DNA of 64,000 bases, from the NCBI RefSeq assembly GCF_900537995.1, contig NZ_LR027880.1, forward strand, positions 3,496,001-3,560,000, given 5' to 3'. The translations under genes and the position numbers were made by a program. Under the pieces are notes generated by a model, which made no database searches, was not told the DNA's origin, and saw only the letters and a program-made list of their open reading frames with translations. This DNA comes from Roseburia intestinalis L1-82 (GTDB lineage Bacteria > Bacillota > Clostridia > Lachnospirales > Lachnospiraceae). Each line of letters begins with the position of its first letter. The first letter of the stretch is position 1. Below, piece after piece: positions 30,698 through 62,408 of the stretch.

Positions 30698-31906
30698 TTA
30701 CATTGCTGCGTAAGCACCATCTTTGATCACTACTGCCTTCGGAGCCTTGCTGACCTCTCCGGTTGCCTGCCATGTCATTCCCTCACCTGTCAATCCATCT
30801 ACAGAGATAGATGTCATTGCTCCGGTTAATGCAGTGCCCAGATCAGAAGCACTCATATCCGGTGTTGCACCTGCCTGCTCGATAGCTGCTTTGATAACAT
30901 AGATTGCATCGTAAGCATCTGCTGCGAACTGGTTTGGAACATCGCCATATTTCTCTTTGTATGTGGAAACAAATGCTTTTGTTTTCTCATCATCTGCATC
31001 TGCAGCGAATGGAGTTAATAACATAACACCTTCCGCTAAAGATGTATCAAAGTTCTCAACGCCAAGGATTCCGTCCATACCATCAACACCGAAGAAAGCC
31101 GGCTCATAACCCATACCGTTTGCCTGGGTTAAAATGATAGATGCCTCTGTATAGTAAATCGGTAAGAATACTAAGTCAGCGCCTGCAGACTGCGCTTTCT
31201 GAAGCTGTGTGGAAAAATCTGTCTTGGAATCTGCTGTAAACGCTTCCTCAGCTACAACCTCAAGTCCTTTATTCTGTGCCTCTTCCACGAAAGTAGCTTC
31301 GATACCGGAAGAATATACGCTCGAACTGTCATAGATGACTGCAACTTTTGTTCCTAAATTGTTGTCTGCAATGTACTGTGCAGAAGCTGTACCCTGGTTC
31401 GGATCTGTAAAGCATGCCTGGAATACATTATCGTTTGTGATAACATCTGTGGATGATGCGGATGGTGTAATCTCAAACATACCATCTTCTGCTGTCTTGT
31501 CTGCAACTGCTACACAAGGTGTTGTTGTAACAGTTCCCATTAAGATCTGCATACCCCAGTCTTTTAATGAGTTATATGCATTGACGGATTTCTCTGCATC
31601 GTTCTGATCATCCTCTGCTTTGAATGCAAGCTGATATCCGTTTGCACCGCCAGCTGCATTGATCTCATCCACTGCCATCTGTGCTGCGTTCATAACTGCG
31701 TTTCCGTAAATTGCTGCATCACCGGTTGTCGGTCCGATGCTTCCGATCTTAAATACAGAACCGTCTGCTGCACTGTCGTCTGATGCGCTGCTGTCTGCTC
31801 CTGCAGATGCATTGCCTGTTGATGTGTTTCCTGCTGAACTGCCACAGCCTGCCAGACAACTTACTGCCAGTGCTGCTGTTAAAAACATACTTACCGCTTT
31901 TTTCAT
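30698..31906 (-). CDS. livJ: Branched-chain amino-acid binding lipoprotein (LivJ/LivK-like)
   Basis: The protein begins with a lipoprotein signal (lipobox SCLAGC near residue 20) and a Ser/Ala-rich linker. The periplasmic-binding type I fold follows: IGSIGPTTGDAAIYGNAVMN, AVDEINAAGGANGY, VFQACFTDPNQGTASAQY and VAVIYDSSSVYSSG. It captures Leu/Ile/Val or related ligands for LivHMGF. A longer reading from 31918 (MEAI...) is in frame, but GGAGG lies 7 bases before the ATG at 31906. The mRNA leader shares a structured block with the leader of the chemoreceptor at 41682. Confidence 0.92.
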   Translation of the reverse strand: MKKAVSMFLTAALAVSCLAGCGSSAGNTSTGNASAGADSSASDDSAADGSVFKIGSIGPTTGDAAIYGNAVMNAAQMAVDEINAAGGANGYQLAFKAEDDQNDAEKSVNAYNSLKDWGMQILMGTVTTTPCVAVADKTAEDGMFEITPSASSTDVITNDNVFQACFTDPNQGTASAQYIADNNLGTKVAVIYDSSSVYSSGIEATFVEEAQNKGLEVVAEEAFTADSKTDFSTQLQKAQSAGADLVFLPIYYTEASIILTQANGMGYEPAFFGVDGMDGILGVENFDTSLAEGVMLLTPFAADADDEKTKAFVSTYKEKYGDVPNQFAADAYDAIYVIKAAIEQAGATPDMSASDLGTALTGAMTSISVDGLTGEGMTWQATGEVSKAPKAVVIKDGAYAAM

Positions 31907-31995
31907 AATAGCCTCCATTCCTACCCATTTTTCAGGGCATCACAAGTTTGTGTTCAAACACAAATCTTGTGTGTGAAAAATGTAATTTTTCACAC
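31907..31995 (-). promoter_or_regulatory. Structured livJ leader, copy A of a conserved element
   Basis: Three hairpins can form in series on the minus strand: GTGTGAAAAAT/ATTTTTCACAC; TTGTGT/ACACAA inside CACAAG/CTTGTG; and GCCC/GGGT just before the AGGAATGGAGG ribosome binding site. The block is nearly identical to 41592-41681 upstream of the MCP-PilZ gene, including one compensatory base-pair change. It probably controls transcription or translation of livJ. Confidence 0.6.
31940..31993 (-). CDS. Possible 17-residue leader peptide upstream of livJ
   Basis: A GTG preceded by GGAGG (spacing 7) opens an 18-codon frame (GTG to TGA) reading [18 protein letters not shown]. The matching frame upstream of the MCP at 41682 reads [16 protein letters not shown] after its GTG, with 4 of the 6 differing codons synonymous. 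It may be a regulatory upstream ORF, or a by-product of the RNA hairpins it overlaps. Confidence 0.4.
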   Translation of the reverse strand: MKNYIFHTQDLCLNTNL

Positions 31996-32076
31996 TTTTT
32001 CCTCCATTCATCTTCCGCACCTTATATTGTCATGATATTTCATACATTTGCGAAAGCTCTGAAACTTGTTGTTGCA

Positions 32077-41544: not shown

Positions 41545-41591
41545 CTGATTAAAGGTGTTACTTTAGTCCTAACTTACACAGAATGAAAATA

Positions 41592-41681
41592 GTGTGAAAA
41601 ATAAGATTTTTCACACGCAAGATTTGTGCTTACGCACAAACTTATGATGCCCTGAAAAACGGGCAGGAATGGAGAGATTTT
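41592..41681 (+). promoter_or_regulatory. Structured MCP leader, copy B of a conserved element
   Basis: Hairpins GTGTGAAAAAT/ATTTTTCACAC, TTGTGC/GCACAA and GCCC/GGGC occur in the same order and spacing as upstream of livJ (31907-31995). The middle stem changes T-A to C-G on both sides relative to livJ, and the third stem changes GGGT to GGGC, keeping pairing. The AGGAATGGAG site follows directly. Confidence 0.6.
41594..41647 (+). CDS. Possible 17-residue leader peptide upstream of the MCP-PilZ gene
   Basis: A GTG-to-TGA frame reads [16 protein letters not shown] after the start, matching the livJ leader frame in all but two residues. No clear ribosome binding site precedes it here, unlike in copy A, which weakens the coding reading. 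Confidence 0.33.
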
Positions 41682-43793
41682 ATGGAGTATAACGAATCGT
41701 ATTTCAAAGCAAAGTCAAATGCAAAAGCGCGCACGGTCTGGCTGATCTTAATCGCCATCATGACTTTGTCCTATGGCTCTGAGACATCCCAGGGGCTTCA
41801 CTCAGCAAAATATTACACAACCTTTCTTCTCATGGCATGGGTTCCCTTTTTCATTGGTATTCTCGTACTAAAGATCAATGGAAAAGCTTCTTCTGTATAC
41901 AAGGAAATCGTTGCCGTCGGTTACGGTTCGTTTTATACTTACGTCATCCTTACCACGGATTCCGCGATCGCTTTCGGCTATATCCTGCCTCTGACAAGTA
42001 TGCTGATTCTTTTTAAGGATCGCAAGTACATGATCCGGTGTGGTATTGCCAATGAGATCATCGTAATTGTCCATCTTGTTTTACATAATATGTATGGAAT
42101 CAACCCGAGTATCGTACTGAACGATTACTATCTTCAGATTTCCACGATATTGCTCTGCTATATCTGCTACGTTGTTTCCATTGACCATTTAAACGAATCT
42201 GACGGTGCACTCGTCAACTCCATCCGGGACAATTTAGACCGCGTGGTAACAACAGTCGGACAGGTAAAAGGCGCCAGCAGTTCCATTGTTGATGGTGTCA
42301 CTGTTGTCCGCGAACTTGCTGATGAAAACAGGCAAGGAGCTGATTCCGTTGTAAAAAGTATGGAAGAGCTTACCCAGAATAACGATATTCTTTATACAAA
42401 AACGATGTCCTCCATGGATAAAACCTCCGATATCAACATGCAGGTGCAAAATGTGGCAGCTCTGATCGAAAAGATGGTAAATCTGATTCAGGAATCCATC
42501 GAGCATGCAAACTTAAGTGCCGAAGAGCTTGCCGATGTTGTGACAACCACCAACACAATGGCTGATCTGTCCGCGCATGTCGAACAGGTTTTAGAGAACT
42601 TCAAACAGGATTTTGATATGGTAAAGGAAGAGACCGGAACGATCGAAGGAATTACTTTCCAGACAAACCTCCTCGCCTTAAACGCCTCCATCGAAGCCGC
42701 CAGAGCCGGTGCTGCCGGAAAAGGCTTTGCCGTTGTAGCTGACCAGATTCAGGGGCTCAGCGTGGAGACCAAAAATTCATCCGGCCGCATTCGTGATGCG
42801 TTGACCCATTTAGATGAGACTTCCGGAAAAATGACACAGTCCATCACGCAGACACTTGAACTTATCCAGACAACACGTGAAAAACTAACACTCGTAAAAG
42901 AAAGTGTTTCCAGTATTACGCAGGACTCAACAACACTCGGTGAAAACATTAAAGTAATCGACGGTGCCATGAAAGATGTGGAATCCTCCAATCAGGACAT
43001 GGTCGACAACATGAAACAGGTCTGCGATACCATGGGTGTCATGACAAAATGTATCAACCAGTCAGACGATGTTTCCCGCACCATGCTGAGTAAATATGAA
43101 GAATCTGCCATCAACGTAAACAAGATCGAAACCATTGTCGGAAAACTGATGGGTGAGCTTGGTACCGGAGGTTTCATGGGAATCGGCGATGCCAGACCCG
43201 GCATGAAAGTCGTCCTGATTGCAAAGAACGGAAGCTCTTCTTTCACCGCTCACGGCGAAGTGACAGAATCCTTAGATGGTGGAATCACGGCACGTCTGCA
43301 TGTTCCTTCCGGAAGTTCGATCGATACCAGAAACAGGAATTTTACCTACGAACTGCAGATCTCCGTGACAAACGCATTGTATATCTGGGAAAATGCTGAG
43401 ATCACCACGATGCGTGGTCAGTCGTCCGATATGTATAAGATTACAGTTACAACCAACCCGAAGGTTGTTAACCGGCGTAAATATCCTCGTATGCCGATCT
43501 CTAACAAGTGTACGATCACGGTAAAACAGAACGGTAAACAATATAACGGTCAGATGATCAACATCAGTGCCGGCGGCTTTGCATTCAGTGTCCGTGATAA
43601 TTTCTTTTCCAGTGCGATCGGTTCTGATATCACCTTATCGATTCCTGATCTTCCGGTGGAAAATGCCCGCCAGTTAGAAGGTCATATCATCCGAAGCACA
43701 GACAATGAGAACGTCTTTATCGTCGGCTGCCGTATGCCAGAGGATAATACAGCGGTCGAACAGTATGTACAAAACAATTACCAGGGTGAGTAA
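41682..43793 (+). CDS. Methyl-accepting chemotaxis protein fused to a YcgR/PilZ-like module
   Basis: The 703-residue protein has an N-terminal block of about six membrane helices (residues 18-170) instead of a large sensor domain. A long helical signalling region follows, with the MCP hairpin tip [20 protein letters not shown] near residue 325. After about residue 500 comes a beta-rich PilZ-N-like domain ([19 protein letters not shown]). A PilZ domain with RRKYPRMP and NISAGGF, the RxxxR and (D/N)xSxxG c-di-GMP motifs, lies at about 590-690. YcgR-type pairs slow the flagellar motor when c-di-GMP is bound, so this fusion could link ligand or membrane sensing to c-di-GMP. Its leader matches that of livJ. 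Confidence 0.88.
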
Positions 43794-60559: not shown

Positions 60560-62408
60560 ATCGAGTAGGAGGGAAATCTGAGTGATTTCCCGACCTCTCA
60601 CACCACCGTGCGTACCGTTCGGTACACGGCGGTTCAATCAACTTAACAAGTAACACACCTTTCGGTGTAGTAATCTAACATTGAGACTAATCCAAATGAA
60701 GTTAGTCTCTTTGTGCTTATAGCCTTTTGTATCCATCCATTGTGACACATGTGTGCATACCGATTGCCAGTATTTGCCACTTTATGTGCCGCCCATCTTG
60801 GAACGCCGAGTTTAACCAAATTCTTCTCTTTGTTTTGTGGTGTTTTCCAATGTTTCCAAATACACATGCGTATTCTATATCTAATGTTTCCATCAAGTTC
60901 TCTACAGAGAGTTTTCATACTACCTATCTTAAAGTAGTTAATCCATCCTCTGATAAGCTGATTAAGTCTCTCTACTTTATAGCTGTTGCTAACGCCCCAG
61001 CTACGACAAGTGAGTTCCCTCATCCTCTTCTTATACTTCATTACTGATTTTGCATGTGGTTTCGCCTTGAATTGCTGTGCACTTGTATCGTAGTAGAATC
61101 CAAACCCAAGGTATTTAATTCCTCTTGGTCTATCTACTTTGCTCTTCGTCATATTGACTTTAAGTCCTAGTTTTTCCTCAATGAATCGTGAGATATTTCT
61201 CATAACTCTATTCGCAGACATTTCACTTCCGACCATAATGATACAGTCATCCGCATACCGTACAAAGTTAAGTCCTCTCTTTTCCATTTCCTTGTCTAGT
61301 TCGTTCAGCATAATATTTGCCAATAATGGCGAGAGATTTCCACCTTGAGGTGTTCCCACGATAGAATCCTCATACTCATCGTCAATCATGATTCCACTGA
61401 CTAGGTATTTTCTGACAATAGAGATAACATCTCCATCTTTAATAGTTCTACCTATGATAGTCATAAGTTTGTCATGATTTACTGTGTCAAAGAACTTTTC
61501 CAAGTCAATGTCTACAATCCAATCATTTCCGTCATTCATCATATCGAGTGCTGTAAGGATTGCTTGCTGTGCACATCTGTTCGGTCTGAATCCATAGCTA
61601 TGGTCATGGAATTGTTCCTCATAGATTGGTGTTAAAACCTGTGCAATAGCTTGTTGTATGAATCTGTCTGTTACTGTCGGTACTCCCAGGTTTCTGACAC
61701 CACCATCAGGCTTTGGTATCTCCACTCTTCGTACTGGTTGAGGTTTATATTTTCTTATCCTCAACTGTTCCTTGATAATTTCGCCGTTCTTTGCAAGATA
61801 TTCCTTGAGTTCTGTGTACTTCATTCCGTCTACTCCCTCGGCACCTTTGTTTCGTACGACTTGCAGATATGCTCTGTTGAGATTATCGTTAGATAGTATC
61901 TGCTCCATTAGACTACTTGTGTCCATGCGTTCTTTCCTTTCCGTCCCGCTTGATTTGACCATCTTTTACCCGATTGGTTACGGCAGATGTTATCTCTTCT
62001 GCAATACGAGACATACTCAAACTTATTGATTGTTCGCCCCTTTGCTCTATCTCCATTACAGAGACTTCTTCACTACTATGGGCTCGGCTGACTTCTCACA
62101 GTTCGTTGTTACTAGGCTAATGAAACCCCTGTGAGACCTCCACGCTTAAGGTGCACGCTCTTTCCTCTCATCTATCCGCCACATCTACTCGTACTTCCAG
62201 CAACTTTAGGACTTCATCTCTTTTGGCAGACTTATCCGTATTTCCGAGCCTTATATGTGATTTCTGTCCGTCGGACCAAGAGTTTGCTTACAGCTTCCTT
62301 CAGATTCCACCTCACGATGGACACCCTTGCTGTTCTGCTATACACTTCCTCGTTGCCTAGGCGTGTTCGGGACTTTCACCCATTAGAGCGCGCCCATGGC
62401 GCGCAAAC
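60560..62408 (-). mobile_element. Group II intron with maturase ORF, inserted behind a tRNA-operon terminator
   Basis: On the minus strand the element starts GTTTGCGCGCCATGGGCGCG at 62408. It contains the maturase ORF and ends with domain V, GAACCGCCGTGTACC-GAAC-GGTACGCACGGTGGTG (60601-60635), and a domain VI-like stem with bulge region ending CTACTCGAT at 60560. The domain V helix and tetraloop-like turn are clear. The 5' junction directly follows the T-run of the terminator at 62410-62442. With an endonuclease-less RT this fits class IIC behaviour. It is about 1.85 kb and appears intact. Confidence 0.88.
60643..61926 (-). CDS. Group II intron reverse transcriptase/maturase
   Basis: The start chosen is the ATG at 61926 (AAGGAAAG upstream), giving about 427 residues; the frame is open to 61962. 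RT blocks are PKPDGGVRNLGVPTVTDRFI, DHSYGFRPNRCAQQAI, WIVDIDLEKFFDTVNH, GTPQGGNLSPLLANI and FVRYADDCII (the catalytic YADD). A maturase domain X with LIRGWINYFKIG follows. No HNH endonuclease domain is present at the C-terminus. The enzyme folds and mobilises its own intron. Confidence 0.95.
   Translation of the reverse strand: MDTSSLMEQILSNDNLNRAYLQVVRNKGAEGVDGMKYTELKEYLAKNGEIIKEQLRIRKYKPQPVRRVEIPKPDGGVRNLGVPTVTDRFIQQAIAQVLTPIYEEQFHDHSYGFRPNRCAQQAILTALDMMNDGNDWIVDIDLEKFFDTVNHDKLMTIIGRTIKDGDVISIVRKYLVSGIMIDDEYEDSIVGTPQGGNLSPLLANIMLNELDKEMEKRGLNFVRYADDCIIMVGSEMSANRVMRNISRFIEEKLGLKVNMTKSKVDRPRGIKYLGFGFYYDTSAQQFKAKPHAKSVMKYKKRMRELTCRSWGVSNSYKVERLNQLIRGWINYFKIGSMKTLCRELDGNIRYRIRMCIWKHWKTPQNKEKNLVKLGVPRWAAHKVANTGNRYAHMCHNGWIQKAISTKRLTSFGLVSMLDYYTERCVTC

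Follow-up and report, generated by a model that had tools for sequence, protein, structure and literature searches.

A structured repeat with its own Shine-Dalgarno sequence, dispersed before genes of Roseburia intestinalis and related bacteria

MITEs and other small palindromic repeats of bacteria are short, non-coding, hairpin-forming sequences which occur in many copies per genome and are polymorphic between relatives. REP/REPIN sequences are short hairpin repeats mobilised by RAYT (Y1) transposases and amplified in a species-specific way, and Rickettsia palindromic elements are palindromic repeats whose sequence can form part of the reading frame of a gene. Among structured RNAs, TD-2 RNA is a multi-hairpin RNA repeated in one genome, the preQ1-II riboswitch has a pseudoknot close to the Shine-Dalgarno (SD) sequence, and in erm leaders the translation of a short ORF opens hairpins.

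The element that we describe in R. intestinalis L1-82 resembles MITEs in its shortness, copy number, hairpins and polymorphism and in being non-coding. It differs from them in that it carries an SD, sits immediately ahead of start codons and mostly in a single orientation, has no clear target duplication and shows a covarying pseudoknot. With REP/REPIN it shares short hairpins and species-specific amplification; however, it is found at ribosome-binding sites in the sense orientation, and its hairpins were absent, one loose pattern match aside, from the loci of the five Y1-transposase matches in its own genome. No Y1 transposase adjoined the copies, no mobilising enzyme was found among these Y1 loci, and a partner of the IS200/IS605 type was rejected on the same evidence. 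Like the Rickettsia elements, it is a palindromic repeat readable in frame with a gene, but it occurs at gene starts and not inside coding sequence, and the frames are not preserved. It is comparable to preQ1-II in having a pseudoknot or alternative pairing by the SD that competes with a hairpin, but it has no conserved gene set, is dispersed and polymorphic, and the SD itself lies outside the counted pseudoknot pairs.

The two copies in the window

We analysed a stretch of 64,000 nucleotides, referred to here as the window, in which a preliminary description had pointed to nearly identical leaders before livJ and before an MCP-PilZ gene. Both leaders were found where they had been placed, as an element of about 84 nt that forms three hairpins (P1, P2 and P3) and ends in an SD (Table 1), and both gene names agree with the Pfam assignments, Peripla_BP_6 (30701-31918) for livJ and MCPsignal plus PilZ for the other gene. 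The likeness is not a product of chance (E = 1.3e-24 within the genome), and the paired changes reported between the copies are present, from GTGT/ACAC to GTGC/GCAC in P2 and from GGGT to GGGC opposite GCCC in P3. Neither leader had been recognised as a known riboswitch class, and in an Rfam scan of the window neither copy matched any family at the gathering threshold. The best match below threshold was TD-2 RNA (RF03162; 22.7 and 22.5 bits, on the antisense strand), which is alike in being multi-hairpin and repeated, but the scores are far below its gathering score of 48.7. TD-2, algC and the others all remained below the threshold, and a known RNA family was rejected. No earlier description of the element was found in the literature, against which its novelty was weakly tested.

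Table 1. Positions of the element copies, their parts and the adjoining genes in the window
Feature	Position	Strand	Description	Basis
Element copy before livJ	31913..31996	-	84 nt: P1, P2, P3, SD	DNA match E=1.3e-24; covariance model 98.6 bits
P1 hairpin, livJ copy	31971..31995	-	11-bp stem GTGTGAAAAAT/ATTTTTCACAC	Fold; covariation in relatives
P2 hairpin, livJ copy	31942..31970	-	ACAAG.TTTGTGT/ACACAAACTTGT	Fold
P3 hairpin, livJ copy	31922..31939	-	5-bp TGCCC/GGGTA; ends 2 nt before AATGGAG	Fold; alignment
Carried SD, livJ copy	31913..31919	-	AATGGAG	Sequence; conserved among aligned copies
livJ-type periplasmic binding protein	30698..31906	-	ATG 6 nt past SD; 402 aa	ORF list; Pfam
SD-like sequence	32001..32009	-	GAATGGAGG, just upstream of P1 of livJ copy	Sequence
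Element copy before MCP-PilZ gene	41591..41674	+	84 nt	Covariance model 105.5 bits
P1 hairpin, MCP-PilZ copy	41592..41616	+		Fold
P2 hairpin, MCP-PilZ copy	41617..41645	+	CTTA weakens lower stem	Fold
P3 hairpin, MCP-PilZ copy	41648..41665	+	TGCCC/GGGCA	Fold
SD, MCP-PilZ copy	41668..41674	+	AATGGAG, 7 nt before ATG	Sequence
MCP-PilZ gene	41682..43793	+		ORF list; Pfam MCPsignal + PilZ (41682-43790)

Both copies fold more stably than shuffled sequences (MFE z=-5.07 for livJ and z=-4.56 for MCP-PilZ; 0/200 shuffles folded as well in each case). P1 of the livJ copy holds a TGA in one frame; its second frame reads TTA and hence lacks the TAA that is present there in most copies of the genome. P2 of both copies consists of two short stems with an A bulge between them, and in relatives its loop is, by the pairing counts, the partner in the pseudoknot. 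The longest ORF of livJ starts at 31918, the in-frame ATG inside AATGGAG, and the gene accordingly has 406 aa in the ORF list and 402 aa from the ATG after the SD. Wherever the usual 6-nt spacing puts this ATG in frame, automatic start calling lengthens the protein by four residues, and start codons can be misplaced in annotation, as for livJ here. The SD-like sequence upstream of P1 (Table 1) is probably an older SD behind which the livJ element came to lie, judged from its letters and from the enrichment of upstream SDs over all copies. Elsewhere in the window, matches to group II intron domains (RF02001, RF01998) lie at 62037-62321 on the minus strand beside a tRNA cluster, and the adjacent ORF of 439 aa (60643-61962, minus strand) may encode the intron-encoded protein.

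Number, placement and mobility of the copies

Copy number, placement, orientation, presence or absence at orthologous sites, insertion point and covariation were computed. A DNA search of the own genome with one copy gave 71 matches, the first 40 of which were not just the palindromic P1 matching itself on the opposite strand. With a covariance model built from 24 copies, and strong copies defined by at least 62.8 bits, 34 strong copies were found on both strands of the 4.49-Mb genome, the MCP-PilZ and livJ copies ranking tenth and fifteenth. The sharing of a leader by two genes thus holds as to likeness, and its specificity to these genes does not, since they account for 2 of 34 copies; a regulon of two genes is ruled out by 34 strong copies before unrelated genes. 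Such numbers of similar, dispersed copies are those of a mobile repeat or MITE. Tandem copies occur, the upstream one sometimes degenerate, and the copies are alike within species and diverged between species, like amplified repeats.

Other genera of the family have related copies as well. Of 40 genomes, 12 (the own one included) matched at E <= 0.1, ten of them in the genus, again including the own genome, and two genomes of other families (G026 and G030) matched weakly (E about 0.012). Among 16 chosen members of the genus, one of them (G006) searched before, 13 matched at E <= 0.001, with a maximum of 49 matches in G074. In the order, 8 of 294 genomes, including the own one, matched at E <= 1e-4, all from one family and 6 genera; these counts are low bounds, obtained with stricter filters and at most 15 candidates scored per genome. 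The exact P3-SD pattern occurred in at least 118 stretches of GTDB contigs. Most of the 80 record titles among the matches listed were Lachnospiraceae; further titles among these matches were Acetatifactor, Roseburia, Lachnoclostridium, Eubacterium, Clostridium, Hungatella and unnamed Clostridia or Bacillota. One MAG among the P3-SD matches listed was titled Bacteroides, which may be a binning error. One exact P1 pattern gave 0 matches in viral_contigs, and on this result a phage origin was rejected.

The copies are placed at the starts of genes. In the own genome, 30 of 34 were followed 4-11 nt after the SD by a start codon with an ORF, 26 of them at exactly +6, the four exceptions being L005, L019, L025 and L027. 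Among the P3-SD matches listed from relatives, a pattern which itself requires an SD, 120 of 121 had sufficient length to be judged, and a start was counted at this place in 106 of them, in 81 at +6; 102 of these 106 starts were ATG, and the four GTG belonged to P1 of a following tandem copy. The preliminary description had taken many copies away from genes as the mark of a mobile repeat; the copies are indeed many, but most of them stand directly before start codons.

A second SD is frequently found on the other side. An SD core occurred within 14 nt upstream of P1 in 24 of 34 own copies, compared to 1-6 of 34 in control windows further upstream, and in 48 of 82 copies of relatives, compared to 9-10 in control windows, with a gap to the element of most commonly 2-4 nt. 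No SD core was found just upstream of the remaining 10 own copies and 34 copies of relatives. SD-like sequence flanks many copies on both sides, and the ends are ambiguous, the resident and the carried SD being alike. No clean target-site duplication was seen at the copies, where the left SD resembles the carried one and the exact ends are uncertain. Upstream open frames of 100 codons or more, counted as open frames and not as confirmed genes, terminated within the element or where it joins the flank in 18 of 133 copies; in 7 of the 18 the end fell at the junction, and in one (L135) it fell near the 3' end.

Signs of movement come from orthologous sites in sister genomes, which differ in the presence of the element as mobile repeats do. 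The flanks in G006 and G059 are 92-96% identical. These two genomes have copies in common at the same genes (L071/L361, L082/L360, L109/L363 and L111/L364), and L110 is filled in both. At four further sites (L060 before fabZ, L107, L108 and L113) the element is present in G006, and in G059 the flanks meet without it. The leader of fabZ reads AATGGAGGGAAACTATG in G059 and AATGAAGGGAA, element, AAAGTATG in G006. This site is empty also in the outgroups G022 and G023, and a gain in G006 is therefore likely; for L107, L108 and L113, a loss in G059 is an alternative to a gain in G006. G020 has an insert at L125, a variant whose 3' part differs; the corresponding site of G069 is empty, and GGAGGAT stands to the left in both genomes. 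Before adk, G056 has a short P1-SD insert and its sister G048 nothing but its SD. In L060, L107, L113 (which lacks the 5' half of P1), L125 and adk of G056, an SD-like sequence precedes the insert and the start codon follows it. L108 is in the 3' end of the upstream gene and not behind an SD, and the frame of that gene ends at the TGA of the element. At L371, G048 has the element and G056 does not, and the filled site no longer shows the old SD. L365 was occupied in both genomes compared, and L370, L074 and L064 gave no readable junction.

The genes downstream do not belong together. In the own genome they encode FabD, IlvD, HPr, PdxT, PanB, Ldh, Adk, a MatE transporter, a Clp-protease-like protein, a GDP-sugar epimerase, DUF proteins and ABC-transport proteins, and a weaker copy precedes what was read by eye as a DnaA-like protein. 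One pathway with genes conserved between species, as expected for a riboswitch, was not found. A comparison of 46 own downstream proteins with 59 of relatives gave two clear orthologous pairs (L002/L114 and L099/L134), by a rough estimate about what unrelated placement would give, and weak cross-genome matches of 24-31% identity, which we took as paralogy. Orthologues elsewhere mostly lack the element. At 30 adk loci read by eye, it or a remnant was seen in G000, G015 and G062, and a short form in G056. Thirty loci were also read for each of the other two genes: mnmA had it clearly only in G022 (25 of 30 starts found, 5 missing), and fabD had it, of the livJ/MCP-PilZ type, only in G000 (21 of 30 starts found, 9 missing).

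Several variants were observed. In the short form, GCAAGAATGGAG or a sequence close to it comes straight after P1, again before start codons (L092, L094, L096, L098, L101 and L105 in G000). These look as if P2 and P3 had been deleted between GCAAGA repeats, and adk of G056 (L292) is short as well. L019, L022 and L026 of G000 have a further palindrome of 22 nt, AATGAAAACGTTGTTTTCATTG, inserted in P3 as an extra hairpin. A longer, related-looking element with P1 of GTGTGAAAAATAAGC...GCTTATTTTTCACAC or similar and extra hairpins, several ending in GGAATGGAG, was seen in G002 (L068/L080), G030 (L070), G006 (L112), G023 (L136) and G000 (L104/L106). In G023, L132, L133, L137 and L139 have a variant P1, GGTTGAAAG, and an anti-SD-like TTCCTCC just after P2, which could pair with the SD GAGAGGAA. 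A further repeat family, distinct from the one described here, begins with a hairpin of the GCGTGAAA type and ends in an SD (GCATGGAGG or similar). It precedes fabD in G048 (L334) and is absent in the sister G056 (L335), is found also in the upstream flanks of L367 and L368, and has dozens of copies in G056. Its layout, the same as here, suggests a wider class.

Fold, covariation and pseudoknot

The preliminary description had looked to covariation beyond the two window copies, and it was found across species in P1 and in the pseudoknot. The arms of P1 change together between species (GTGTG/CACAC, GAGTG/CACTC, GATTG/CAATC, GGTTG/CAACC). In 51 aligned sequences, 336 of 353 P1 cells were paired, with two-sided changes in three of the seven counted pairs; for P3, 251 of 255 cells were paired and one of five pairs had changed on both sides, the kinship of the copies inflating such counts. 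Thirteen of the 64 extracted sequences had been left out of this alignment (A2) for wrong segmentation or another P2/P3 type, and its P2 columns were partly misaligned (410/509 cells paired), and P2 was excluded as covariation evidence. These comparisons indicate that the fold is under selection, P1 and P3 being kept by base-pairing. Conserved structure with covariation upstream of genes is what a cis-regulatory RNA shows, and the earlier proposal of such an RNA is borne out as far as a structured leader with a selected fold is concerned; the coordination of amino-acid uptake with chemotaxis or c-di-GMP signalling that it was to serve is not.

The P2 loop of relatives (CTGCGC...) has its complement in the loop and the 3' arm of P3. 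This pairing held in 353 of 367 cells in one loop type (37 sequences), compared to 22-70% when the partners were slid, and in 125 of 126 cells in the other (14 sequences), compared to 9-46%. The loops also fitted their own P3 better than swapped ones. The mean over 66 unique pairs, roughly one per genome by contig prefix and from L227 onward by locus, was -14.42 against -12.88 (sd 0.21; 0/300 permutations), and with 29 distinct P3 arms it was -12.57 against -10.40 (sd 0.37; 0/300 permutations); 161 of 256 rows (135 + 121) were parsed in this test and the rest dropped. Because the pseudoknot uses the 3' arm of P3, the two structures are mutually exclusive. One orthologous site (L082 of G006, L360 of G059) shows a change in the P2 loop matched by one in P3, C with G as opposed to T with A. 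The complementarity between loop and P3 is weaker in the family of the own genome, where the commonest pair reaches about -5 kcal/mol, and the strong complementarity of relatives is absent from both copies in the window. Within the own genome P1 and P2 hardly vary.

The predicted openness of the SD was 0.61 in native leaders and 0.53 in shuffled leaders of G000, higher in 25 of 34. It was higher than in shuffled leaders in 7 of 10 in G006, 8 of 13 in G011, 4 of 5 in G059, 5 of 11 in G004 and 1 of 4 in G020. The predicted effect on SD accessibility is weak and uneven, and we build no claim on it.

Explanations and meaning for the family

The element is real, structured, dispersed and recently mobile, and its unusual property is its placement at ribosome-binding sites with a carried SD. 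We consider it likely that the leader before livJ and the MCP-PilZ gene is a copy of a small non-coding mobile element which targets ribosome-binding sites and brings its own SD. An element of about 84-97 nt would have spread within one family, Lachnospiraceae by most record titles among the matches listed, with copying that would need an enzyme acting in trans. It would insert in one orientation, the sense, usually a few nt 3' of the resident SD and before the start codon. With an SD at its 3' end, as a rule 6 nt away from the start codon, it would let the gene keep a ribosome-binding site, and this SD would probably take over as the one that is used. The TGA of P1 and usually also its TAA, in two frames, could end an upstream ORF running in, and these stop codons would make the insertion tolerable within operons. 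In relatives, the P2 loop can pair with the 3' side of P3, a pseudoknot that excludes P3 beside the SD, and the choice between the two is predicted to affect translation.

A stricter form of this explanation is less probable, though it deserves serious weight: the element may be an entirely selfish palindromic repeat. Its fold would then be maintained for nothing but its own copying, as single-stranded DNA or RNA, and the element would not influence the host gene other than by being harmless through its SD and stops. Its dispersal and polymorphism, its placement independent of the gene, and a predicted SD openness near that of shuffled leaders all agree with this. However, the matched change between L082 and L360, a single case, does not fit such a repeat, and neither do P3-SD modules that lack an evident P1 and P2 upstream. 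It is also conceivable, although we think it rather unlikely, that the element is a self-spreading translational switch, which seeks out SDs and replaces them and brings unrelated genes under one P3/pseudoknot switch that answers to a common cellular signal. If so, genes would be recruited and lost by insertion and the regulon would differ between species.

A conventional cis-regulatory leader, either a riboswitch or a protein-binding RNA with a regulon including livJ and the MCP-PilZ gene, is improbable. The conserved structure beside the SD, the covariation and the pseudoknot are in its favor, and the matched change between L082 and L360 suggests selection at a resident copy. However, the downstream genes have no common pathway and differ between species, the element is present or absent between sister species, and likeness within species with divergence between them is the pattern of amplified repeats. 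For an amino-acid uptake and chemotaxis or c-di-GMP regulon, as had been suggested, the downstream functions are too diverse, clear orthologous pairs too few (two), and presence in sister species too variable. We give as little credence to spread by recombination, template switching or gene conversion at short SD homologies in place of a transposition-type mechanism. The SD-like sequence flanking many copies and the occurrence of tandem and partial copies would be expected from it, but most copies are complete units at unrelated genes with flanks otherwise unbroken, and the common homology is only about 8 nt.

A leader-peptide attenuator, in which translation of a short ORF from an NTG AAA start in P1 would open the hairpins by analogy with erm leaders, is very improbable and was rejected on the unconserved frames between copies: an SD core does stand upstream, usually at 2-4 nt from the element, NTG then AAA occurs in most copies and the frame is often open, but indels shift the frame, stops are scattered, the later peptide is unconserved, L013, L008, L029 and L050 have no NTG, and insertion behind a resident SD also explains the upstream SD.

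Should the explanation by a mobile element with its own SD prove correct, gut bacteria of this family would harbour a mobile element adapted specifically to the ribosome-binding site, with stop codons in front and an SD behind that keep its insertion tolerable. As a way of entering gene-dense operons, this would be unusual. It raises the testable question of whether the resident fold tunes expression and what moves the element, and it would provide a route to rapid translational re-wiring between sister species.
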